The position numbers and the translations under genes were made by a program. DNA of 49,047 nt from Chloroflexota bacterium (GTDB lineage Bacteria; Chloroflexota; UBA11872). How positions within the stretch are numbered: the first letter of the stretch is position 1; the number at the start of each line of letters is the position of its first letter. The stretch spans positions 1-49,047 of the forward strand of contig JAJDUU010000036.1 in the NCBI GenBank assembly GCA_022826485.1. Direction: 5' to 3'. Shown in pieces: positions 17,249 through 30,795 of this stretch. Under the pieces are notes generated by a model. The model saw only the letters and a list, made by a program, of their open reading frames with translations, did not search any database and had not been told where the DNA came from.

Positions 17249-19234
17249 ATGGCTGACGAGATCGCCGGGCGGCTGGCCCAAATCTTGAGGTCCTGGGCGC
17301 GCGCCGGGCTGGCGGGGGTCTTGTCCGGACTGCTGGCCGTGGGCGTGAGCGAGCTCTACGCCGGGATCTTCGACGGGTTGCCGTCACTCCTCGTCTCCAT
17401 GAGCGGACGGATCGTGGACCTGAGTCCGCGGGCCATGGAAGAGTTCGCGATCAGCGTGTTCGGCACCAGCGACAAGCTGGCGCTCGTCATCTTTCTGGTG
17501 GTGCTCACGGCGATCTTCAGCGCCACGCTCGGCGTCGTGGCGCTGCGGTCTCGACCGGTGGCGGTGGCGGGCTTCGCGGCCTTCGGAATCCTGGCCGGGC
17601 TGGCGAACGCCTTCGACGCCCAATCGACACCGGCCCATGGGGCAGCGTCAGCTGCCGTGTCGGTGGGGCTGGCGGTGGCGGCGCTCTTGTGGCTCATCCG
17701 GCTGATCCGGCAGCCAGCGGCTGCCGCGGAGACGACGCCGGCGATCCAGTTGCGGCGACAGCGACGGCTGTTTCTTGGCACCGCCACGGTGGTGGCGGCA
17801 GCCTCGGTGGCTACCGGAATCGTCGGACGCAATCTGATCGAACGCGCCAAGGTGGTCGCGGCCAAGCGCGAGGATGTGGTGCTGCCCCCAGTGAGCAGCC
17901 GCGCGGCGGTGACGCTGCCGGGTCCAGCACCCACGATCAGTGTGGCGGAGGCGCTGGCGCCCACGCCGACTCCCGCGCCCACGCCGACCCCCGAGCCCGA
18001 ACCGACGCCCACGGCGACCCCGTCGGCGACCGCCACGCCGGAACCAACGCCGACACCGGAGCCCACGCCCACGTCTACGCCCGAGCCCACGCCGACTCCG
18101 ACGCCCGAGCCGACACCTACGCCGACGCCGGAGCCCACGCCTACCCCCACACCCGAGCCCACGCCCACTCCAACGCCCGAGCCCACGCCCACCCCAACGC
18201 CCGAGCCCACGCCCACCCCAACGCCCGAGCCGACACCCACGCCCACGCCTGAGCCGACGCCCACGCCGACCCCCGAGCCCACCCCAACACCGACACCCGC
18301 GCCCGCACCGGTCCAGCCGCTGACGACGACGACGGTTCCCGTGGACGGGATGACGCCGCTGGTTACGCCGAACAGCGACTTCTACCGGATCGACACCGCG
18401 TTCTCGATTCCGCGCGTCGACGTCAACACGTGGCGGCTCAGCATTGGGGGCCTCGTCGAGCGTCCCTTCAGCATCTCCTTCGAGGAGTTGCTGGGGCTCT
18501 CGACGTTCGAGGAGTTCATCACGCTGTGCTGCGTCTCGAACCAGGTGGGCGGCAACCTCATCGGCAATGCCAAGTGGCAGGGGGTGCCGATCTGGCACCT
18601 GATCAATCATGCCGGGGTGAAGCCCGAAGCCACCCAGATCGTCGGACGGTCGGTGGACGGCTTTACGGTCGGGTTCCCGCGCGACGTGGCGTTCGATGGG
18701 CGCCCGGCGCTGGTGGCCGTGGGCATGAATGGCGAAGCGCTGCCGTTCAAGCACGGCTTTCCGGCGCGCCTGATCGTGTCGGGCCTCTACGGGTACGTTT
18801 CCGCCACCAAGTGGCTGCAGGAGATCGAGCTCACCACCTGGGAGGGGTTCAACGGCTACTGGATCCCGCGGGGCTGGTCCAAGCGAGGTCCGGTCAAGCT
18901 GCAATCCCGGATCGACGTTCCCAGGCGCTCAGCGACGATAAGCCCCGGCCGGCAGCCGATCGCCGGTGTGGCGTGGGCGCAGAACCGCGGCATCAGCAAG
19001 GTGGAGGTGCAGATCGACGGCGGCGATTGGCAGGAAGCCAGGCTCGCCCTGCCGATCAGCAAGCACACCTGGGTGCAGTGGGTGCACGAATGGGACGCCA
19101 CCCCGGGCGCGCACACGGCGAGGGTGCGCGCCACCGAGGCCAACGGCGAACTGCAATCCGAAGGTCCCCGGCCGCCAGCGCCAAACGGCGCCGAGGGCTG
19201 GCATCAGATCAGGTTCAACGTCGCCGAATCCTGA
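17249..19234 (+). CDS. Membrane-anchored sulfite-oxidase-family molybdopterin oxidoreductase
   Basis: 661 aa. Residues 1-200 hold about four to five membrane helices ([81 protein letters not shown]). Residues about 230-355 are a long (PTPTPEP)n linker. Residues about 365-530 are the molybdopterin domain, with the Mo-ligand region '[19 protein letters not shown]' and '[10 protein letters not shown]', and '[22 protein letters not shown]'. Residues about 545-655 are the Mo-cofactor dimerisation domain. The catalytic part would face outside, held off the membrane by the spacer. Oxidation of sulfite or reduction of an S-/N-oxide are possible; the substrate is not readable. AGGAGA lies just before ATG 17249. 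Confidence 0.88.
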
Positions 19235-21076: not shown

Positions 21077-21718
21077 GTGAATTTCGATGTCGACCAACAC
21101 CTCGGCGCCACGGAGCGCTCAGTGTCGTGGCTGGAGCGCGATGGAATGCCCGCCAGCGGGGTCACGCTGGCTCGCAGCTACGCGACGACGCTGGAGGACC
21201 TGTGGGACGCCGTGACGAACGGCGAGCGCATCCCGCGCTGGTTTGCGCCGGTGAGCGGGGAGCTTCAGCCTGGCGGCCGGTACCAGATCGAAGGCAACGC
21301 CGGCGGTGAGATCACGGCGTGCGAAGCACAGTCCCACTACGCGTTCACGTGGGTGTTCGGCGAGTTCGTGAGCTGGGTGGACGTGGGCGTAGCGCATGAA
21401 GGATCGGGCCATGCCCGGCTGACGCTCACGCACACGGCGCACCTTTCGGAGCACTGGGACACCTACGGGCCGGGTGCGGTGGGCGTCGGCTGGGAAATGG
21501 GCTTTCTGGGGCTGGCGCTGTATCTCGCCGAGCCCAACTGGTCGAAGCCCGACGACATGGCGTTCGCCACCTCGCCGGACGGCAAGGCGTTCATCACCGG
21601 CAGCAGCGAGGGGTGGGGACGTGCGGCCGTTGCGGCGGGCACGAACCCCGAAACCGCAGGTGCGGCGGCGCGCCAGACGACTGCGTTCTACACGGGTGAG
21701 GAAACCGAGCCGGAGTGA
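21077..21718 (+). CDS. SRPBCC (AHSA1/START-like) domain protein
   Basis: 213 aa. Residues about 27-150 match the Aha1-type START fold: 'SYATTLEDLWDAVTNGERIPRWFAP' then 'GGRYQIEGNAGGEI', 'YAFTWVFGEF' and 'ARLTLTHTAHL'. These domains form a hydrophobic cavity and often act as lipid- or ligand-binding proteins or as partners of ArsR-type regulators. The C-terminal ~50 residues (GWGRAAVAAGTNPE) are the usual extension. The start is GTG 21077. The upstream gap to 20882 shows no gene. A frame read through by chance on the other strand is not supported. Confidence 0.82.
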   Translation: MNFDVDQHLGATERSVSWLERDGMPASGVTLARSYATTLEDLWDAVTNGERIPRWFAPVSGELQPGGRYQIEGNAGGEITACEAQSHYAFTWVFGEFVSWVDVGVAHEGSGHARLTLTHTAHLSEHWDTYGPGAVGVGWEMGFLGLALYLAEPNWSKPDDMAFATSPDGKAFITGSSEGWGRAAVAAGTNPETAGAAARQTTAFYTGEETEPE

Positions 21719-22356: not shown

Positions 22357-23430
22357 ATGGCGACCCGACGTAGGCGGATCGAGAACGCTCCCCTGCCCTC
22401 CCCGTTTCCCGAGGGCTGGTACTTCATCGCAAGCCGAGCGGATTTGGTCAAGTCCAAGCTCATCCAGCGGACCTGGATGGGGGAGAACATCGTCGCCTGG
22501 TGCGATGCGAACGGAGGCGTCTGCGTCGCCGAGGCCTACTGCCCCCACCTGGGATCGGATCTGGGACCCGAGGCGGGAGGCCGGATTCGCGACGGCCGCC
22601 TCGTCTGCCCGTTCCATGGCTACGAGTTCGATGCCAGCGGTCAGTGCGTCGCCACGCCGTATGCCGACCCGCCGAAGACGGCGAAGCTACGGGTTTTCGC
22701 AACCCAGGAAGTGCTCGGCCTGATCTTCGCGTGGTGGGGCATCGACGGGCGCCCGCCGCAATGGAGCTTGCCGGACTATCCACGGGAGGAGTCCGGCTGG
22801 ACTGACTTCGAAATCAGGACGATGCGCTTTGCGGGCCACCCCCAGGAGACGACGGAGAACTCGGTGGACTTGGGCCACCTGCGATTCGTCCACGGCTATG
22901 AGAACGTGGGCCGCGCCGAGCGGCTGTCGGTCGACGGGGCGTGTCTCAAGAGCGACTTCGACTTTCGGCGCGTTCGGACGATTGCCAAGGTCGCGAAGCT
23001 GACCTTCGACATCACCGCCAAGACTCGGATCTTCGGGCTGGGCTATTCGTACGTGCAGATTCGCGAGCACTCCATCGGGATAGATTTGCGGCTGTGGGTA
23101 CTGGCGACGCCGGTCGACGGCAAGCTGATTGACTTGTCGCTGGTCTCGCATGTGCGCGAGATTCGCAAGCCGAAGCGGTGGATTGCCGGCTTGGGATTCC
23201 TCCCGGTGGGGCTGCGCGCGCCCCTGATGAACAAGATCATGGCCGCGATGCAAACCCGCGATGTCTTGCAGGACGTGGTCATCTGGGAGCGCAAGCAGCA
23301 CCGATCCCTGCCCCGACTCTGTCGCTCGGACGGCGAGATCATGCCGTTTCGGACGTTCTGCACCCAGTTCTATCCCGACCCTCGCGAGGCGGCGACGCTC
23401 CCCGAGCAAGCTGCCGAAACCCTACGATGA
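22357..23430 (+). CDS. Rieske [2Fe-2S] non-haem iron oxygenase (steroid-type candidate)
   Basis: 357 aa. The Rieske cluster ligands are C62-P-H64 and C84-P-F-H87 (CPHLGSDLG ... CPFHGYEF). The mononuclear iron site is ENSVDLGHLRFVH, giving N168, D171, H174 and H179. The single-subunit layout, 'PEGWYFIA' start and C-terminal helical region match the group of Rieske oxygenases acting on steroids and other large lipids (ketosteroid 9-hydroxylase, Neverland/DAF-36 and bacterial sterol-demethylase SdmA-like enzymes). That assignment is from motif layout and context, not a search. It needs electron-transfer partners, none adjacent. ATG 22357 is preceded by GGAG. It begins a plus-strand run with the RND transporter and the sterol methyltransferase. 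Confidence 0.85.
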   Translation: MATRRRRIENAPLPSPFPEGWYFIASRADLVKSKLIQRTWMGENIVAWCDANGGVCVAEAYCPHLGSDLGPEAGGRIRDGRLVCPFHGYEFDASGQCVATPYADPPKTAKLRVFATQEVLGLIFAWWGIDGRPPQWSLPDYPREESGWTDFEIRTMRFAGHPQETTENSVDLGHLRFVHGYENVGRAERLSVDGACLKSDFDFRRVRTIAKVAKLTFDITAKTRIFGLGYSYVQIREHSIGIDLRLWVLATPVDGKLIDLSLVSHVREIRKPKRWIAGLGFLPVGLRAPLMNKIMAAMQTRDVLQDVVIWERKQHRSLPRLCRSDGEIMPFRTFCTQFYPDPREAATLPEQAAETLR

Positions 23431-23518
23431 CCAGAGGAATCGTCCGTGAGTCGCAACCGCACGTCCGGGAAGCAGTGGGCGGCGCTTCCCGCAGAATCCT
23501 GAGATTGAGGGACAGGCC

Positions 23519-26011
23519 ATGAATCAGGTACTTGGCAAGCTGAGTTCGCTGGTCACGGTCCGCCCGTGGATCACGCTTCTGGTCCTCTTCCTCGTCACGC
23601 TCGGACTGGGCGCCGGAGCGGTGTTCCGCGCGCCGCTGCCGTCGACCGCCGAGACGCTGCCTGACAACAGCCCCATTGCCGACGCGATGGCCGAGATCAA
23701 TGAGCTCTTCGGAGACCACGGGGAAATCAGCGCCGTGACGCTCGTGTTCCGAGGCGACGCGCTCACGCCCGCCGGTCTGTCCCAGATGGACGCCCTGATC
23801 AATGACATCGTCGGCGACCCGGGCGTGCACGAGCTCTTGACGCCGTCCAACCCGGTCTTTGCGCCGTCGTCGCTGATCAAATCCGCGCTTCAGGTCGACA
23901 GTTTTGAGTCGGTGACGCAGGCGCAGATCGATGACGTTCGCGTCCTCCCGCAAATCCAGCCGGCCCTTGCGGCAATGACCGGCACCGACACGGACGGCAG
24001 CCGGGTCGCGATCGGCAGCATCAGCTTGCTCGACACGGGCGACGATCGCGTGAGGGACGCCGAGCGAACGATCAACGAACTCTCCATCGCATCCGAGGGC
24101 CCGCTGCAGGCAAGCAGCGTGTCGTTCATCGTGATCGAGGACGAGTACAAAGAGGCCACCGAGACGGGGATGGGCCCCCTCATCGGCATCGCCTTCCTGC
24201 TGATCGCGCTACTGCTGCTGCTCTTCATGCGCACGCTGTCCGACATGTGGCTGACGCTGGGCGGACTCCTGGTGTCGATCATCTGGATCATTGGCGCGGA
24301 AGGCTGGCTCGGACCGAACGCCCTGGGTCTGATCGGCCCGCCGAACTCGCTGACCACGATGGTGCCGATCATCGTGATCGGCCTGACGGTGGACTATGCG
24401 ATTCAGACCATCTCGCACTACCGCGAGCAGCGTCTTGAGGGCGGTGAGGTGCGCGAGGCCATTCGCACGGGACTGCGCATCGTGGCCGTCCCTCTGATTC
24501 TGGCTGCCGTCACCACCATCGTCGGAATGTTGGCCAGCCTGTTTTCCCCAATCGGCATCGTGCGCGACTTCGGCGTCGTCGCGGGAATGGGCATTGCGAT
24601 GAGCCTGATCGTCATGCTGACGCTGGTCCCGGCCAGCCGGACGATCATGGACCGGCGACGCGAGAAGCGGGGGACGTTGAAGCCGCCACGTCCAATCGTG
24701 CACGCCTTGCCGGGCGTCGAGCGGCTGGCCGGGCTGCTGGGCCGCAGCGTGACCCGCCGGCCCGCGTACTACATCCTGGCTGTCGGCGCGATCACGATTG
24801 GTCTCGGCATTGCGTCAACCGGGTTGAAGTCGGAGTTCAACATCCGCGACGTGCTCCCCAGGGGCGGCGCCGTGCTGGCGGACATGGACACCCTGGAGGC
24901 GGCCGTCGGTGGCTCGGCCGAGGTGACCAACGTCCTCATCAAGGCCGAGGCCACGGAGACGCGGACGCTGCTCAACCTGCAGGACCTCACGACCGCCTTC
25001 GCGGACGAAACCCGGCGCCCGCCGGCGGCCGCGGGGCCGATTCAGGCCTCATATGAGCTGCTGCTGCGCGACTGGACCACCGACAGCGGGCAGCCGGGCG
25101 ACAAGTACGACCCCGAAATCGCATCGCTGTTCCGAGAGGCCTCGGCGGGCCTGCAGCTCGATCCAGCGCTGATGCAGGAAATCCTCGACCGGCTGGAGGC
25201 CATGGATCCAGCCTTCGGTCGCGTTCTCGTCAACAACCCGCAGGGCGTCGACACGCTGCTGATTCAGTTCCAGAGCTATGGGGGCGACCCCAACCTGACC
25301 ACCGCGCTGCAGCAAGACCTCGAGAATCTATGGGCCGGCGAGGATGACGGCCTGACCGCAACCTCGGAGAGCATCATCTCGATCACCGTCACGGACTCGA
25401 TCACCGAGCGGCAAACCGAGGCGATCGTCACGACGGTCGCGGCGGCTCTTACCGTTCTGGCCTTGTTCTTCTACCTGACGGTGCGCCAGCCGGCGCTCGC
25501 GATTGTTGCCGTGGGGCCCATCGTGCTCGTGCTCATCTGCGTGCTGGGCACGATGGCGCTGCTGGGAATCCCCTACTCGCTCATCACGTCAATCATCACG
25601 GCGCTTTCCATCGGAATCGGCGTGGACTACACCATTCATGTGATCCATCGCTATCGCGAGGAGTTCGCCCGCCTGCGCAACCCGGAGGAAGCCGCGGTCC
25701 GGACGCTCGCCACCACCGGGTCGGCGTTGTTGGGATCGGCAATGACCACAGCGCTCGGCCTGGGCGTGCTGGCGGCCTCGCCGCTGCTGGCGTCCCAGCA
25801 GTTCGGCATAACGGCGGCCATCACCATCGCCTACTCGCTGATCGTCAGCATCGTGTTGGTGCCGCCGGCCATGACCATCTGGGGCGCCTACCAGAACATG
25901 CGCCTGCGCTCGATGGTGGAGCGCGAGTGGTCCGAGCTCGACGTGGCTATCGACGAGGTGTATCGGCGACACGAGCAGGAAGAAGAAGCGTCTTCGCAGG
26001 CGGCCCCATGA
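23519..26011 (+). CDS. MMPL/RND-family lipid transporter
   Basis: 830 aa, 12 predicted membrane helices in two repeats. Each half starts with one helix (WITLLVLFLVTLGLGAGAVF; YYILAVGAITIGLGIA), then a large outer loop, then five helices. The RND signature is seen twice: 'IVIGLTVDYAIQTISHYREQ' and 'IGIGVDYTIHVIHRYREE', with the membrane Asp that carries protons. The size and paired 'VDY' motifs fit the MMPL/HpnN/Patched-like branch, which moves hydrophobic lipids including hopanoids, mycolates and sterols. It lies 88 bp after the Rieske gene and 52 bp before the sterol methyltransferase, so it is probably the exporter or importer for their product or substrate. The C-terminus is acidic and cytoplasmic. 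Confidence 0.9.
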   Translation: MNQVLGKLSSLVTVRPWITLLVLFLVTLGLGAGAVFRAPLPSTAETLPDNSPIADAMAEINELFGDHGEISAVTLVFRGDALTPAGLSQMDALINDIVGDPGVHELLTPSNPVFAPSSLIKSALQVDSFESVTQAQIDDVRVLPQIQPALAAMTGTDTDGSRVAIGSISLLDTGDDRVRDAERTINELSIASEGPLQASSVSFIVIEDEYKEATETGMGPLIGIAFLLIALLLLLFMRTLSDMWLTLGGLLVSIIWIIGAEGWLGPNALGLIGPPNSLTTMVPIIVIGLTVDYAIQTISHYREQRLEGGEVREAIRTGLRIVAVPLILAAVTTIVGMLASLFSPIGIVRDFGVVAGMGIAMSLIVMLTLVPASRTIMDRRREKRGTLKPPRPIVHALPGVERLAGLLGRSVTRRPAYYILAVGAITIGLGIASTGLKSEFNIRDVLPRGGAVLADMDTLEAAVGGSAEVTNVLIKAEATETRTLLNLQDLTTAFADETRRPPAAAGPIQASYELLLRDWTTDSGQPGDKYDPEIASLFREASAGLQLDPALMQEILDRLEAMDPAFGRVLVNNPQGVDTLLIQFQSYGGDPNLTTALQQDLENLWAGEDDGLTATSESIISITVTDSITERQTEAIVTTVAAALTVLALFFYLTVRQPALAIVAVGPIVLVLICVLGTMALLGIPYSLITSIITALSIGIGVDYTIHVIHRYREEFARLRNPEEAAVRTLATTGSALLGSAMTTALGLGVLAASPLLASQQFGITAAITIAYSLIVSIVLVPPAMTIWGAYQNMRLRSMVEREWSELDVAIDEVYRRHEQEEEASSQAAP

Positions 26012-26063
26012 CCGGCAGGTCACGCGTAGACATCGAGCCACTCAGCCGGGGTATGCGCTAAGC

Positions 26064-27128
26064 GTGGCCCTTCCATTCGCCAAGGAGCTTGGGCGCCTCC
26101 GCAATCTGTCCAGGGGGCTCAAGGGCGCGTACCGCGGATCGGACGCCCAACGTCGCGTGCAAGATTTCGATGGATGGATGCACCGAGCCACGGCGGGCGA
26201 TGCGGTCGCGACCGACTACGACCACGCCACAACCGTGAAGGAGTACTACGACCTTTGCGGCGAGTTCATGGTGTTCGGGTGGGGCGAATCGCTCCATTTC
26301 GCCCCGCTGTCGCCGCGGGAGAGCCTGGAGGATTCCAAGACCCGGCACCAGCGGCTGATGATCGCCAAGCTGGAGTTGCGCGAGGGTATGACGGTGATCG
26401 ATGTCGGGTGCGGGATCGGCGGCCCGATGCGCCGGGTCATCCGCGAGGCGGGTGTCAGGGTGGTCGGGATCAATAGCAATGAGATCCAGTTGGACAAAGC
26501 GAGGTCGCTCAACGCCGAGGCGGGGCTGGACCACATGGCCGATTACGTCGCGTGCAGCTTCATGGACATGGGCGCCATCGCCGACGACACGTTCGACCGG
26601 GGCTATGCGATCGAATCGACCTGCCATGCGCCGGACAAGGCCGGCGCGTTCGCCGAGATCTACCGCGTGCTGAAACCCGGAGCCCTCTTCTGGGGTCAGG
26701 AAATGTGCCTGACGGACTCGTTCGATCCCGGCGACAAGCGGCATCGCGCCATCAAACAGGAACTGATGCACGGCATCGCCCTCAATGAGATCGCGACGAT
26801 GGGCGAAGTGGACCGAGCCCTCGAAACGGCGGGGTTTCAGGTGATCGAGGGGATAGACCGGGCCGTCGCGGAAAATGGTCCCTCCACGCCGTGGTATCAG
26901 CCCATGGTGAGCCGACGCCAAACCCTGGGCAATGCTCTGCACCGGACTCCGGTCGGCCGCAAGGCGTTCCAGGGGACATCGAAGCTGGTCGAGACGCTGG
27001 GGATTCTTCCGAAAGGCTCCGCCGACGTCGTCGGGCTCATGGATCGCACGGCCAACGCCTACGTTGCGGGCGGCAAGGCCGGGATCTTCACGCCGCTCTA
27101 CTGTTTCCTGGCTCGCAAGCCCGGATAG
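26064..27128 (+). CDS. ERG6-type sterol 24-C-methyltransferase
   Basis: 354 aa, close to eukaryotic SMT length. It has the full SMT signature set: YYDLCGEF..FGWGESLHFAP (61-81), SAM motif VIDVGCGIGGPMR (111-123), VVGINSNE (133-140), the diagnostic sterol motif YAIESTCHAPD (181-191), the 'LTDSFDPGD' loop (217-224) and a complete sterol-MT C-terminal domain ending LPKGSADV ... VAGGKAGIFTPLY..LARKP (315-353), which parallels yeast Erg6. It should transfer methyl from SAM to the C-24 double bond of a sterol side chain, or of a similar terpenoid. The start is GTG 26064. It is the third gene of the Rieske-RND-SMT run and is convergent with the GPP34-P450 gene. No oxidosqualene cyclase is in the window. 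Confidence 0.92.
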   Translation: MALPFAKELGRLRNLSRGLKGAYRGSDAQRRVQDFDGWMHRATAGDAVATDYDHATTVKEYYDLCGEFMVFGWGESLHFAPLSPRESLEDSKTRHQRLMIAKLELREGMTVIDVGCGIGGPMRRVIREAGVRVVGINSNEIQLDKARSLNAEAGLDHMADYVACSFMDMGAIADDTFDRGYAIESTCHAPDKAGAFAEIYRVLKPGALFWGQEMCLTDSFDPGDKRHRAIKQELMHGIALNEIATMGEVDRALETAGFQVIEGIDRAVAENGPSTPWYQPMVSRRQTLGNALHRTPVGRKAFQGTSKLVETLGILPKGSADVVGLMDRTANAYVAGGKAGIFTPLYCFLARKPG

Positions 27129-27167
27129 GCTCGCTCCGCCCCCGACTCTCGGGCGATGCCAGTTGCG

Positions 27168-29192
27168 TTAGACGTTCAACTCGTGCCGCTGCTCGGCAAT
27201 GCGGAACTTCAGCTTCTTGCTCGGTTTGCTCGACGGCAGCGGGCTGAAGCCGAGCTGGAAGTTCGGCGGGGACACCTCGAGCGTAAAGTGGCGCGCGATC
27301 ATCAGCACGTTGGCCGCCAGCTGCAGTTCCACCCACCCCGTGCCAAGGCACCGGTGCGTGCCCAACCCATATGGGGCGTAGCCAGGACCGCGATGCTCGT
27401 TGCGCGGCGGCTGGTAACGGTCGATATCGAACTTGAATGGGTCTGGAAAGACGTCGCTCATGTAGTGCGTGGCCGTCTGGGCAATGTGCAGCCGGGACCC
27501 GACGGGCAGCTTGTAGCCTTCGACCACGCAGGAATTCATCACGTTGCGAATGGACATCGGGACGATCGGATACACCCGCAGGCATTCCATGAGGAAGCGG
27601 TGGGTGACGTCGATCTCTCGTGGCCTGAATGCCTCTCCACTCGGATCGCCGTTGGCGAACAAGGCATCGGCTTCGTCTCGGATTCTCGCGTGGATCTCCG
27701 GCTGTGACGCCATGGCGTACAACACGAAGCTGAACATGTCGCCGAGGTATACGCTCGCTATCAGCGCGGCTGAAAGCGCGAAGGGCAGATTCGATTCCGG
27801 GACGAACTGCGGATCGCTCGCGTGCAGGCTAAGCAGGTCATCCGCAAGGTCGCGGGGACATCCAGCCCGCTGGGCGGGCGTGTGGCCAAGCTGAACCCGC
27901 TTCAACAGTGTGTCCAAGGATTTCATCCGGCGCCGCATGCCTGGGGTTCGCAGCATGAACTTGGGCATCACCTTCGCGACGTGAACGCTTAGCGCCCGTT
28001 CCTTGAACCGCGCCAAATCCGCAAAAACATCCTGAGAATCAACGCTGATAAGGAGCGGTGAGAGCTGCGCGTTGATCATTCGCCGGCACATCTCGGTTGC
28101 TTGGTAGGTTGCTCCAACCTCCCAATGCGACATATAGCTCCGCGCGTGCCCATAGACTTGGTCCAGTTGTCCCACGAGCCTTCCGCGGGAATACCCTGGA
28201 CCCAACGACTTGCGAAGCCGAAAGTGATCGGCGCCATCTAGCGACGGCAAGACGCCCGACGCGCCATAGACCTTCTCGAAGTCCGCGAAATAATCCCTCG
28301 TCCTAAGGTATCTGCGCCCACTCCGATGGACCCAGCGGTTCACCTCGAGGCCGCCAACGAAGATCATTGGTTCCACAAACGGCGGTCGGATCTCGAACAC
28401 CGGCCCGTACTCTTCCGTGAGCTCCGCGAAGAGGGCAGGAAAGTTCCCGCTGCGAACATGTCGATTCAGCATCAACCGCCACAGCGGGACCGTCGGAATC
28501 TTCTTGGTCAGGGCGGAGTGCTGTAGCAGCGGGGCGGCAAAGCTCTGGGCCACGGCATCGGCGATCGACCGACCGATCAAGTCCATATTGCAGATGAAGT
28601 GAATGCGCTCCTCATCCTGCTCTTCAAGCTGAAATATAAAGCGAAACACATCACAGGTATTGACGAGGCAGATGATGATCACGTCTCGCGGGTCGGGGAT
28701 TTCGCTATCGAAGATCGCCTTACCGATGCGAGTCTTCACAAATTGCGCCGCGGATCCCTCGGGAGAGCTGCCGAACATTTCCGACTGCCGCGCGGCCCGG
28801 GCAAGCGTCCAGAATCCGCCCTCGTGATGATCCAGAATCTCCGCTTCAACCAAGCGGTCCAGCGTGAGATCGATGATTGAATCGGCGCGGGGCGCCAGCC
28901 GTTCGATCCAATACTGGGCATTGTGACGACCCGACTCGTTCGCTATCTCCTCGAGAATGGGATCGAGCGTCGGGTCACCCGTTTCCGTCCGGTCAACGAG
29001 AAACAGCGACTCGATGTCCGTGTCGATGCGCGACATGAGCGAAAGCTCGGCGAGCGCCGCGCCAACAACGGCGCAGTTCAGGTGCCATCCGGGAACCTGA
29101 TGAAAGTACCCGCTCTCCTCATTGAGCAGCATCAGCAGAAGCTCTTCAGACAGGGTTAACTGTCGAGTGGGCGTATCTTCCGCAACAGTCAT
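27168..29192 (-). CDS. GPP34 (GOLPH3-like)-cytochrome P450 fusion protein
   Basis: 674 aa. Residues about 10-215 are a GPP34 domain: 'LTLSEELLLMLLNEESGY', 'NCAVVGAALAELSLMSRI', 'TGDPTLDPILEEI', 'WIERLAP', 'RLVEAEIL'. In eukaryotes this fold binds PI4P membranes; bacterial roles are unclear. Residues about 235-670 are a P450: ECLR (E536, R539), 'DRYQPPRNEH' and the haem loop YGLGTHRCLG with Cys615. The I helix (472-497) reads ALIASVYLGDMFSF, without the usual Gly and acid-Thr pair used for O2 activation. The P450 is probably held at the membrane by the GPP34 part and acts on a lipid. The ATG 29192 start is clear. GC content is lower than upstream genes. Confidence 0.88.
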   Translation of the reverse strand: MTVAEDTPTRQLTLSEELLLMLLNEESGYFHQVPGWHLNCAVVGAALAELSLMSRIDTDIESLFLVDRTETGDPTLDPILEEIANESGRHNAQYWIERLAPRADSIIDLTLDRLVEAEILDHHEGGFWTLARAARQSEMFGSSPEGSAAQFVKTRIGKAIFDSEIPDPRDVIIICLVNTCDVFRFIFQLEEQDEERIHFICNMDLIGRSIADAVAQSFAAPLLQHSALTKKIPTVPLWRLMLNRHVRSGNFPALFAELTEEYGPVFEIRPPFVEPMIFVGGLEVNRWVHRSGRRYLRTRDYFADFEKVYGASGVLPSLDGADHFRLRKSLGPGYSRGRLVGQLDQVYGHARSYMSHWEVGATYQATEMCRRMINAQLSPLLISVDSQDVFADLARFKERALSVHVAKVMPKFMLRTPGMRRRMKSLDTLLKRVQLGHTPAQRAGCPRDLADDLLSLHASDPQFVPESNLPFALSAALIASVYLGDMFSFVLYAMASQPEIHARIRDEADALFANGDPSGEAFRPREIDVTHRFLMECLRVYPIVPMSIRNVMNSCVVEGYKLPVGSRLHIAQTATHYMSDVFPDPFKFDIDRYQPPRNEHRGPGYAPYGLGTHRCLGTGWVELQLAANVLMIARHFTLEVSPPNFQLGFSPLPSSKPSKKLKFRIAEQRHELNV

Positions 29193-29303
29193 GGGACTTC
29201 GTCCTCGTGCACGCCTGCAACCGGCCTAGGCACTCGTACGCCTACCGCACGTAGCCACGATTGTACCGCTCGGACAGACCGGCGGCAAAGACAAATCACT
29301 TCA

Positions 29304-29318
29304 TGACAAACCATGTCA
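29304..29318. promoter_or_regulatory. TGACA-N5-TGTCA palindrome upstream of the P450 gene
   Basis: A perfect 5-bp inverted repeat with 5-nt spacer, 112 bp upstream of ATG 29192 in the 229-bp A/T-richer gap before the GPP34-P450 gene. It has the size of a GntR/TetR operator half-site pair. No regulator is adjacent. Confidence 0.35.
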
Positions 29319-29421
29319 CGTGATCGAATACTCAAACGATATCTTGCACGTAATCTACAGGCTAGCTTTCCACGCGCCATTCGCAGGATGATCTGCTATT
29401 TCCAATTGACATCGGCCGAGT

Positions 29422-30795
29422 CTATCGTGGCGTTCGATCCTTCGCTTTCTTCAAACGCCAGCCGTGCATAATGCTGCCGTAGTGGTTGAATGACCGCCTC
29501 GCCTTGGAATCGTCGAATGGATAGTCCGCCCCAATCTGAGTTGCAGCGGCGAGACCGCTTACAAAGCACGTTTCCTGGCTGTTGACCAGCGTATGCGCCC
29601 CGCAGTGCCACGTGCGGCGCCGGCCCTGAATGAATTGGAACAAGTTGACAATCCAGGCGACGTGCCGCACGTCATGCACAATATGCTGGAACCACCATCG
29701 CGCGATGACTTTCCGTCCATCGATCTTGCTGATCGGGTTGTAGGTCACCAGACACGGTTTGTCGGACCGACCAGCCCACGGCTGCTGGTTGTGCATGATG
29801 TACGTGATTTCGTAGTTGTCCGGTCGAGCGCCGTACTGCTCGATATGGTTGCTCCGCGTCTTCAGCGGCATCACGTCGTTGTCGGGAAGAACCGCAGCGT
29901 CGGAGTGCACAACGGTGTGATTGTGGAGCTCGCTCTCATAGCGAATTGACGAAAGGATATAGCGCTCCAGCAGCGTGGGCTTGTCGAGAATCATCAAGGT
30001 CTGGTTCGCATTGCACGCCAGAATCACCTCGTCGAAGGCCTCTCTGACGCCGTCTTCGTCCTCCACGACCACGCCGGACGAATGCCGGTATACCTTTCGG
30101 GCGGGCCGGTTGAGGTAGATCTTGTCGCGAAAGCCCGCCGACAGGTTGTCGTAAATACGTCGCGTGCCCTGGTCCCAGGTCTGCATGGGCGTAGCGGTTT
30201 CGATGTCGAAGAAGTCGAGGTACCTGGCGAAGAGCGCGGCCGGCATATCGAACACGTTGGTCGCCATCAGGAAATTGACGAACATCGGCTTTAGGATCTT
30301 GTAGCGGAAGTCCCCGGAGAATCCTCCCAGGTTCAGCACCGTTCCCATGCTGATGTAGTTGAACGGATTGAGTGCGTTCAGCAGCTTCGACCGGGTACGG
30401 CTCAGCCAACCAATCCAATGCAGGTGCCGCAGGATGCGTTGGAACTTCTCGATCTCGGCTTGCAACTGCTCTCTGATCTCGGAGTCGAAGTCGTGCGCGT
30501 AAACCTGGCCGCGGTACTTCACGCTATAGCTGAACCGGGTATCGACCAACTCAATGCCGAACCGTTGCATCAACAGGACGATGTGGTCATAGACCGACGG
30601 AATGCACGCGGTTACGGAGATGTCGAAGGGAATCGAGCCGCCGTCGTCCTGCGGCATGTCGGCGGTGACGGCGTTTCCGCCAATGCGGTCCTGGGCCTCG
30701 TAGAGCCGAAAGTCGAATCGGTCCGGGTGGTGGTGCAAGCCCCAAGCCGCGGCCAGCCCTGAGATTCCCCCTCCAATGATGGCTATGCGCCGCAG
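29422..30795 (-). CDS. FAD/NAD-binding amine-oxidase-like oxidoreductase (COG2907-like)
   Basis: About 457 aa from a CTG start. The dinucleotide motif IAIIGGGISGLAAAWGL is encoded upstream of the first TTG (30738), so the protein must start earlier; the frame is closed by TAG at 30808-30810, and the only start-like codon between is CTG 30793-30795, preceded by AGGAG nine bases upstream. Other motifs: YEAQDRIGGNA and a C-terminal 'CFVSGLAAATQIG'. 'FDISVTACIPSVYDHI' and 'YNPISKIDG' fit the predicted NAD/FAD-binding proteins often found beside cyclopropane-synthase-like and lipid genes. It lies upstream of the P450 on the same strand and may be in the same pathway. The substrate is unknown. Confidence 0.8.
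   Translation of the reverse strand: MRRIAIIGGGISGLAAAWGLHHHPDRFDFRLYEAQDRIGGNAVTADMPQDDGGSIPFDISVTACIPSVYDHIVLLMQRFGIELVDTRFSYSVKYRGQVYAHDFDSEIREQLQAEIEKFQRILRHLHWIGWLSRTRSKLLNALNPFNYISMGTVLNLGGFSGDFRYKILKPMFVNFLMATNVFDMPAALFARYLDFFDIETATPMQTWDQGTRRIYDNLSAGFRDKIYLNRPARKVYRHSSGVVVEDEDGVREAFDEVILACNANQTLMILDKPTLLERYILSSIRYESELHNHTVVHSDAAVLPDNDVMPLKTRSNHIEQYGARPDNYEITYIMHNQQPWAGRSDKPCLVTYNPISKIDGRKVIARWWFQHIVHDVRHVAWIVNLFQFIQGRRRTWHCGAHTLVNSQETCFVSGLAAATQIGADYPFDDSKARRSFNHYGSIMHGWRLKKAKDRTPR

Follow-up and report, generated by a model that had tools for sequence, protein, structure and literature searches.

Five consecutive genes on a contig of a Chloroflexota MAG (JAJDUU010000036.1; 49,047 nucleotides, all of which is referred to here as the window) raise the question of what sterol-type enzymes would do in a bacterium that has no sterol cyclase near them and of where their substrate would come from. 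The preliminary description had read the block as a pathway that oxidizes, C-24-alkylates, and moves a sterol, either host derived or encoded at a distance in the same genome. We consider it probable, at roughly 0.7, that the block is a sterol-tailoring and transport module of a symbiont that makes no sterols and acts on pre-formed ones. Tailoring of acquired sterols is argued for by the sterol-type methyltransferase, the constancy of its oxidase partners, the position of the module next to an operon for de novo sterol synthesis in one genome, and the lack of a cyclase in most of the others.

Gene content of the block

The window belongs to a 3.17-Mb MAG (G000; 96% complete), apparently of a sponge-associated type, whose nearest relatives are other Chloroflexota MAGs. 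Pfam and NCBIfam profile searches assigned the five genes to the families that had been claimed for them, in the same order and on the same strands. These genes, and a small gene upstream, are as follows.

21077 to 21718, plus strand: SRPBCC/AHSA1-type small protein, possible accessory lipid-binding protein (PF08327)
22357 to 23430, plus strand: KshA-type Rieske non-heme iron oxygenase, 357 amino acids (PF00355 and PF19298 KshA_C)
23519 to 26011, plus strand: MMPL/HAE3-type RND transporter, 830 amino acids (PF03176)
26064 to 27128, plus strand: sterol 24-C-methyltransferase (SMT), SMT/ERG6-like, 354 amino acids (PF08498 Sterol_MT_C)
27168 to 29192, minus strand: GPP34-cytochrome P450 fusion, 674 amino acids (PF05719 and PF00067)
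29422 to 30795, minus strand: FAD amine-oxidase-superfamily oxidoreductase, 457 amino acids, CTG start (PF01593)

The Rieske, RND, and SMT genes on the plus strand are separated by intergenic gaps of 52 to 88 bp. For the FAD gene, the most probable start codon is a CTG at position 30795: an in-frame stop precedes this codon, no ATG, GTG, or TTG lies in between, a GGGISG nucleotide-binding motif follows, and the CTG is kept in close relatives. An open reading frame (ORF) limited to ATG, GTG, and TTG starts (start at 30738) cuts off part of GGGISG; since the CTG start restores the motif, the mechanical ORF call is the worse one, and the extent originally given for the block, 22357 to 30795, is right at both ends. 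The block and its flanking genes are retained at 81 to 97% identity in three relatives (L039, L040, and L042), so the arrangement is due neither to chance nor to binning error.

Homologues of the SRPBCC/AHSA1 protein lie close to the module in approximately 10 relatives, in one of them (L062) immediately before the SMT gene. This protein could be a lipid-binding partner, with a weak link to the pathway. Elsewhere in the window, positions 17249 to 19234 encode a molybdopterin sulfite-oxidase-like enzyme in which a long linker of a repeated 10-residue unit joins the membrane part to the catalytic domain; the repeat gives rise to long spurious ORFs on the opposite strand.

Predicted activities of the encoded proteins

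The window SMT matched the Sterol_MT_C profile at 61.8 bits (cut-off, 21.7; E = 6.5e-17), and the motifs GWGESLHF, DVGCGIGGP, and IESTCHAP are all present and near invariant across 87 aligned homologues. Activity on sterols in vitro has been demonstrated for SMT homologues from sponge metagenomes (PMC10070321), and the window enzyme is predicted to methylate a sterol side chain at C-24. A second SMT, ~42% identical, occurs elsewhere in many Chloroflexota relatives (L152:9133-10149; L151, L153, and L041:17253) and is absent from the window genome; at L151 to L153 it has no recognizable sterol genes adjacent to it. One genome, G029, has no SMT yet carries the FAD, Rieske, P450, and RND genes together (L171; G029:C6:60000-79000), which implies that alkylation is not a constant function of the module. 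Some lineages may have a core of four genes to which the SMT is added, and that core may work without C-24 methylation.

The GPP34 domain occupies residues 14 to 215 of the fusion protein, with the P450 domain C-terminal to it. GPP34 is a peripheral membrane-binding domain in eukaryotes, which by analogy suggests that this half docks the P450 at the membrane. The P450 half retains the heme cysteine and the ExxR motif. In its I-helix the aspartate is conserved, while most of the 53 homologues have alanine or methionine where threonine is usual, a substitution that may reflect an unusual mode of oxygen activation or desaturase chemistry. The best matches among solved structures were CYP51s, weakly so (81 bits). 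For the FAD enzyme, which has 79% mean column identity across phyla, the nearest solved structures were LkcE and 2b9w, the latter of which we take to be a FAD-dependent fatty-acid double-bond isomerase. Its AlphaFold model (pLDDT 51) was too poor for structural use. Together, the P450 and the FAD enzyme would be expected to oxidize or desaturate a sterol.

The window Rieske protein matched KshA_C at E = 1.4e-23, and the ligand motifs for its iron-sulfur center and its mononuclear iron do not vary among the complete homologues aligned. The nearest solved structures were KshA both by sequence and by fold, the latter (TM 0.72 to 0.77) from a predicted model with pLDDT 85. The protein scored 38 bits against the SdmA model NF052579 (cut-off, 600) and is not SdmA. 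It is a candidate for oxidation or desaturation of the sterol ring system.

The RND protein matched MMPL at E = 2.8e-46 and the HAE3 model TIGR00921 at 210 bits. It fell below the cut-offs of both HpnN models (TIGR03480, 115 of 752 bits; NF052374, 68 of 1,100 bits) and of the sterol transporter BstA (NF045600, 25 of 1,400 bits). A "Sterol-sensing" match was set aside as evidence for sterols, as it is common to RND proteins generally.

Some features of these proteins weaken the sterol-tailoring reading. The Sterol_MT_C score of the window SMT (62 bits) is under that of SMT2 (80 bits) in the sterol operon of a Nitrospirota genome (G114) described below, the FAD family is broad and its nearest solved member is LkcE, KshA-like Rieske enzymes have varied substrates, and the RND family moves many lipids.

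Sterol and hopanoid genes

The lack of a cyclase near the block, as originally noted, extends to the whole of the 96% complete window genome, in which a search for squalene epoxidase (SQE; PF08491), oxidosqualene cyclase (OSC), and squalene-hopene cyclase (SHC) found only the last. This sole triterpene cyclase (DVDDTA motif) lies on contig C30, preceded by two squalene/phytoene-synthase-like genes and followed by an HpnH-like radical SAM gene; the former are putatively hpnC/hpnD-like by position, and these names are read from the sequences. We thus rejected the possibility that a sterol cyclase had been missed, the only candidate being an SHC with hpn-type neighbors. Of the two substrate sources initially proposed, a host-derived sterol fits a genome with SHC and neither SQE nor OSC, while distant encoding is unlikely at ~96% completeness.

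Clear SQE and OSC were present in only 4 of 54 genomes (G114, G115, G121, and G129). Among the 48 of these 54 genomes that bear an SMT, 44 were without both SQE and OSC, and at least 21 were without any cyclase match; cyclase-free genomes include the single-chromosome records of a Dadabacteria (G104) and a Dehalococcoidia (G113) member. Genes could have been missed in one 96% complete MAG, which would not explain a pattern seen across tens of genomes.

In the Nitrospirota genome G114, the module is followed within ~21 kb by an operon of SMT2, SdmB, SdmA, ERG24, a CYP51-like P450, and SQE/OSC. SdmB and SdmA scored 303 and 415 bits, respectively, and the ERG24-type reductase matched at E = 1.5e-70. 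The CYP51-like P450, named by its place in the operon, is separate from the GPP34-P450 and scored better than the window protein. The SQE-OSC fusion (L148:6375-9998 on G114:C55) is a single ORF of 1,208 residues with a DCTAE motif and 728 bits to TIGR03463. Because SdmA, SdmB, and OSC are under the NCBI equivalog cut-offs, the exact functions in this operon are putative. SQE and OSC are likewise fused in one ORF of ~1,110 to 1,210 amino acids in all four genomes that carry them, symbiont MAGs of different groups, with both domains above Pfam cut-offs. In G129, the fusion gene has another GPP34-P450 as its neighbor, and an MMPL-type RND gene lies close by.

Distribution among symbiont genomes

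An SMT scan of genome contigs returned 217 relatives, of which the best 80 (69 to 92% identity) were analyzed. These 80 come from MAGs of Chloroflexota, Dadabacteria, Acidimicrobiia and Actinomycetes (Actinomycetota), Nitrospirales (Nitrospirota), Nitrospinota, Gemmatimonadota, Alpha- and Gammaproteobacteria, Terriglobia (Acidobacteriota), and Truepera. Within up to 10 kb on each side of the SMT, less at contig ends, the GPP34-P450 was found in 52 of the best 80 loci, the Rieske gene in 50, an RND gene in 48, and the FAD gene in 29; at least one of P450, Rieske, and FAD was near the SMT in 58. The SMT-associated RND proteins belong to three sequence families, namely, HAE3/MMPL in Chloroflexota, another MMPL type in Dadabacteria and Proteobacteria, and an AcrB-like type in Gemmatimonadota and Gammaproteobacteria. 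Among the Chloroflexota loci, 28 of 40 have the HAE3/MMPL-type gene close to the SMT; elsewhere, other RND types take its place. In the Dadabacteria chromosome G104, SMT2, P450, and FAD genes share one site, with the SMT, Rieske, and RND genes ~15 to 20 kb away.

Whole-genome counts gave a similar picture. A GPP34-P450 homologue was present in all 33 further SMT genomes with named records (28 at ≥60% identity), and the FAD gene was present in 27 of the 33. Across 101 Chloroflexota genomes, SMT was found in 20 and the P450 (≥60% identity) in the same 20 plus 3 more; the FAD gene was found in 22 of these 23 P450 genomes, while none of the other 78 carried SMT, P450, or FAD. Fisher tests of this co-occurrence gave 3e-18 and 2e-21, values that are only indicative, as the genomes are related.

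A sterol function would be hard to maintain if related genomes showed no synteny and the families pointed to unrelated substrates. The comparison found conservation instead: the gene families recur together, in shuffled order and orientation, in approximately 10 phyla or classes, and the set in G114 adjoins a sterol operon. Both observations support the original reading of the block as oxidizing, C-24-alkylating, and transporting a sterol.

The SB06xx, jk18x, p16x, and OX638/CATOS series and the remaining records are presumably sponge derived; sponge origin is documented for part of the MAGs only. Ten of the best 80 (accessions beginning with MPM or MPN) are listed as symbionts of Aplysina aerophoba (Slaby et al. 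2017; PMC5649159). The RHO, COS, and IRC series fit the sponges Rhopaloeides, Coscinoderma, and Ircinia of Robbins et al. 2021 (PMC8163846), a match of prefix to species that we infer.

Evolutionary history

Phyla are mixed on the SMT tree, which was built by a quick method. Gamma- and Alphaproteobacteria each require four label changes on well-supported branches and Gemmatimonadota require at least three, with one Gammaproteobacteria-Gemmatimonadota pair supported at 97%; SMT identity between these two groups reaches 93%. This mixing, together with the high identity between phyla, points to horizontal exchange. Some noise may stem from mis-binning, which would not account for the records at chromosome level. 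A recent transfer of the whole module in one piece is not supported: the inter-phylum distances of its genes are uncorrelated (rho, −0.3 to 0.2). Given the lack of a single inter-phylum history, the set appears to have come about through reassembly or piecemeal exchange, with function keeping its members together. Carriage by phages or plasmids was rejected: the SMT and FAD enzyme had no match in viral contigs, and the plasmid search matched only distant methyltransferases.

Alternative explanations

Two other readings turn on the substrate or its fate in metabolism. The module might tailor the bacterium's own hopanoids, with SHC making hopene and the SMT, P450, Rieske enzyme, and HpnN-like RND protein decorating and moving the products. 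The SHC and its hpn-type neighbors in the window genome, and the 115 bits of the RND protein to HpnN, are consistent with this. However, the module is on a different contig from the hopanoid genes, the G114 module adjoins an OSC operon and not an SHC, and the 21 or more of 48 SMT genomes without a cyclase of either kind, G104 and G113 among them, led us to reject hopanoids as a general answer; we regard this reading as very improbable. Steroid breakdown, in which the KshA-type Rieske enzyme would open ring B, the P450 would start side-chain oxidation, and sterols would serve as a carbon source, is also improbable. The Rieske protein is indeed nearest to KshA by sequence and fold, and a survey of steroid breakdown in host-associated metagenomes often mentions sponges in the portion of it covered here (PMC5790920). 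Yet an SMT builds rather than degrades, the G114 module is adjacent to biosynthesis genes, and KstD was absent from the window genome, where the best match to NF005882 reached 24 bits (cut-off, 788) and all matches were Rossmann-type background.

It is somewhat unlikely, though in keeping with several observations, that the product of the module is a modified steroid to be exported, as a defensive or signaling natural product, rather than a membrane sterol. A P450, a FAD enzyme, and a Rieske enzyme are a typical decorating set; LkcE, nearest to the FAD enzyme, belongs to antibiotic biosynthesis; and three RND types, including AcrB-like exporters, go with the module. Strong conservation, exemplified by the 79% mean column identity of the FAD enzyme over phyla, is better suited to a common core function. 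This alternative differs from tailoring of acquired sterols for the cell only in the fate of the product.

Proposed pathway

In the preferred reading, that of acquired sterols being tailored, ready-made sterols would enter the cell, coming from the sponge, from what it eats, or from neighboring symbionts. The GPP34 domain probably keeps the P450 at the membrane, where this enzyme and the FAD enzyme would oxidize or desaturate the sterol. The SMT would then add one or more methyl groups to the side chain at C-24, a step that would require a C-24 double bond, either already in the substrate or introduced by the P450 or the FAD enzyme. Oxidation or desaturation of the sterol rings may fall to the Rieske enzyme, and the RND protein may carry the substrate or the product from one membrane to another or export it. 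The sterol's identity, the order of steps, the regiochemistry, including the bonds attacked by the P450, FAD, and Rieske enzymes, the source of the delta-24 bond, and the cargo of the transporter and its direction are all predicted here from sequence.

Relation to known systems and significance

Earlier publications describe both bacterial SMTs and clusters for de novo sterol synthesis in sponge symbionts. The sponge-metagenome SMT homologues of Brown et al. 2023 (PMC10070321) carry out sterol C-24 methylation, and many are clustered with sdmA/sdmB; the emphasis of that study is on de novo clusters, with an OSC accompanying 13 of its 24 SMTs. A Chlamydiae SMT is an OSC-less case in it, for which the authors raise host-acquired sterols. 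Its main text makes no mention of P450, Chloroflexi, or a fusion, nor does it describe GPP34-P450, Rieske, FAD, or RND partners. The clusters of steroid genes (CSGs) of Ircinia symbionts (Kelly et al. 2022; PMC9531527) resemble the module in their occurrence in sponge symbionts of 10 phyla, their horizontal transfer, and the SMT often alongside; they differ in being de novo ERG24-CYP51-OSC clusters, whereas the module contains none of these genes, mostly occurs without them, and adjoins such a set in G114.

At the level of single proteins, the window Rieske shares the Rieske/KshA_C architecture with the 3-ketosteroid 9alpha-hydroxylase KshA (PDB 4qdd and 2zyl) and with the cholesterol 7-desaturases Neverland/DAF-36, but it is only 21 to 24% identical to KshA and is without a KstD partner. 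In SdmA/SdmB sterol C-4 demethylation, a bacterial Rieske oxygenase likewise acts on sterols, but the window protein reaches 38 bits against the SdmA model, compared with 415 for the SdmA encoded in the G114 operon. The RND protein shares its RND/MMPL family with the inner-membrane lipid transporters HpnN and BstA and scores far under the cut-offs of both. Searches of the open-access literature found nothing relevant on a combination of GPP34 and P450. Within that literature, there appears to be no precedent for this module lacking a cyclase, for its spread, or for the GPP34-P450 as the member found most constantly in it.

The origin of unusual sponge sterols is debated, as is the 24-isopropylcholestane fossil signal taken as evidence for early animals, and published work looks mainly for bacteria with a sterol pathway from the cyclase onward. 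Tentatively, and with slightly less than even confidence, we propose that an undescribed module (GPP34-P450, LkcE-like FAD enzyme, KshA-type Rieske enzyme, RND transporter, and usually an SMT) has spread horizontally through many of the sponge bacterial phyla and lets bacteria that make no sterols remodel those of the sponge or its neighbors, so that sponge sterol profiles, including alkylated fossil biomarkers, would derive in part from cyclase-free bacteria. If this is true, cyclase-based screening misses most bacterial contributors, and the host, its diet, and neighboring symbionts would be the substrate donors. Sterols and sterol fossils attributed to sponges may then be shaped by bacteria that do no more than modify the sterols of others. 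The module offers a specific set of enzymes for heterologous testing, including a P450 fusion predicted to be membrane docked, and represents a case of a single metabolic trait common to several phyla in one habitat.
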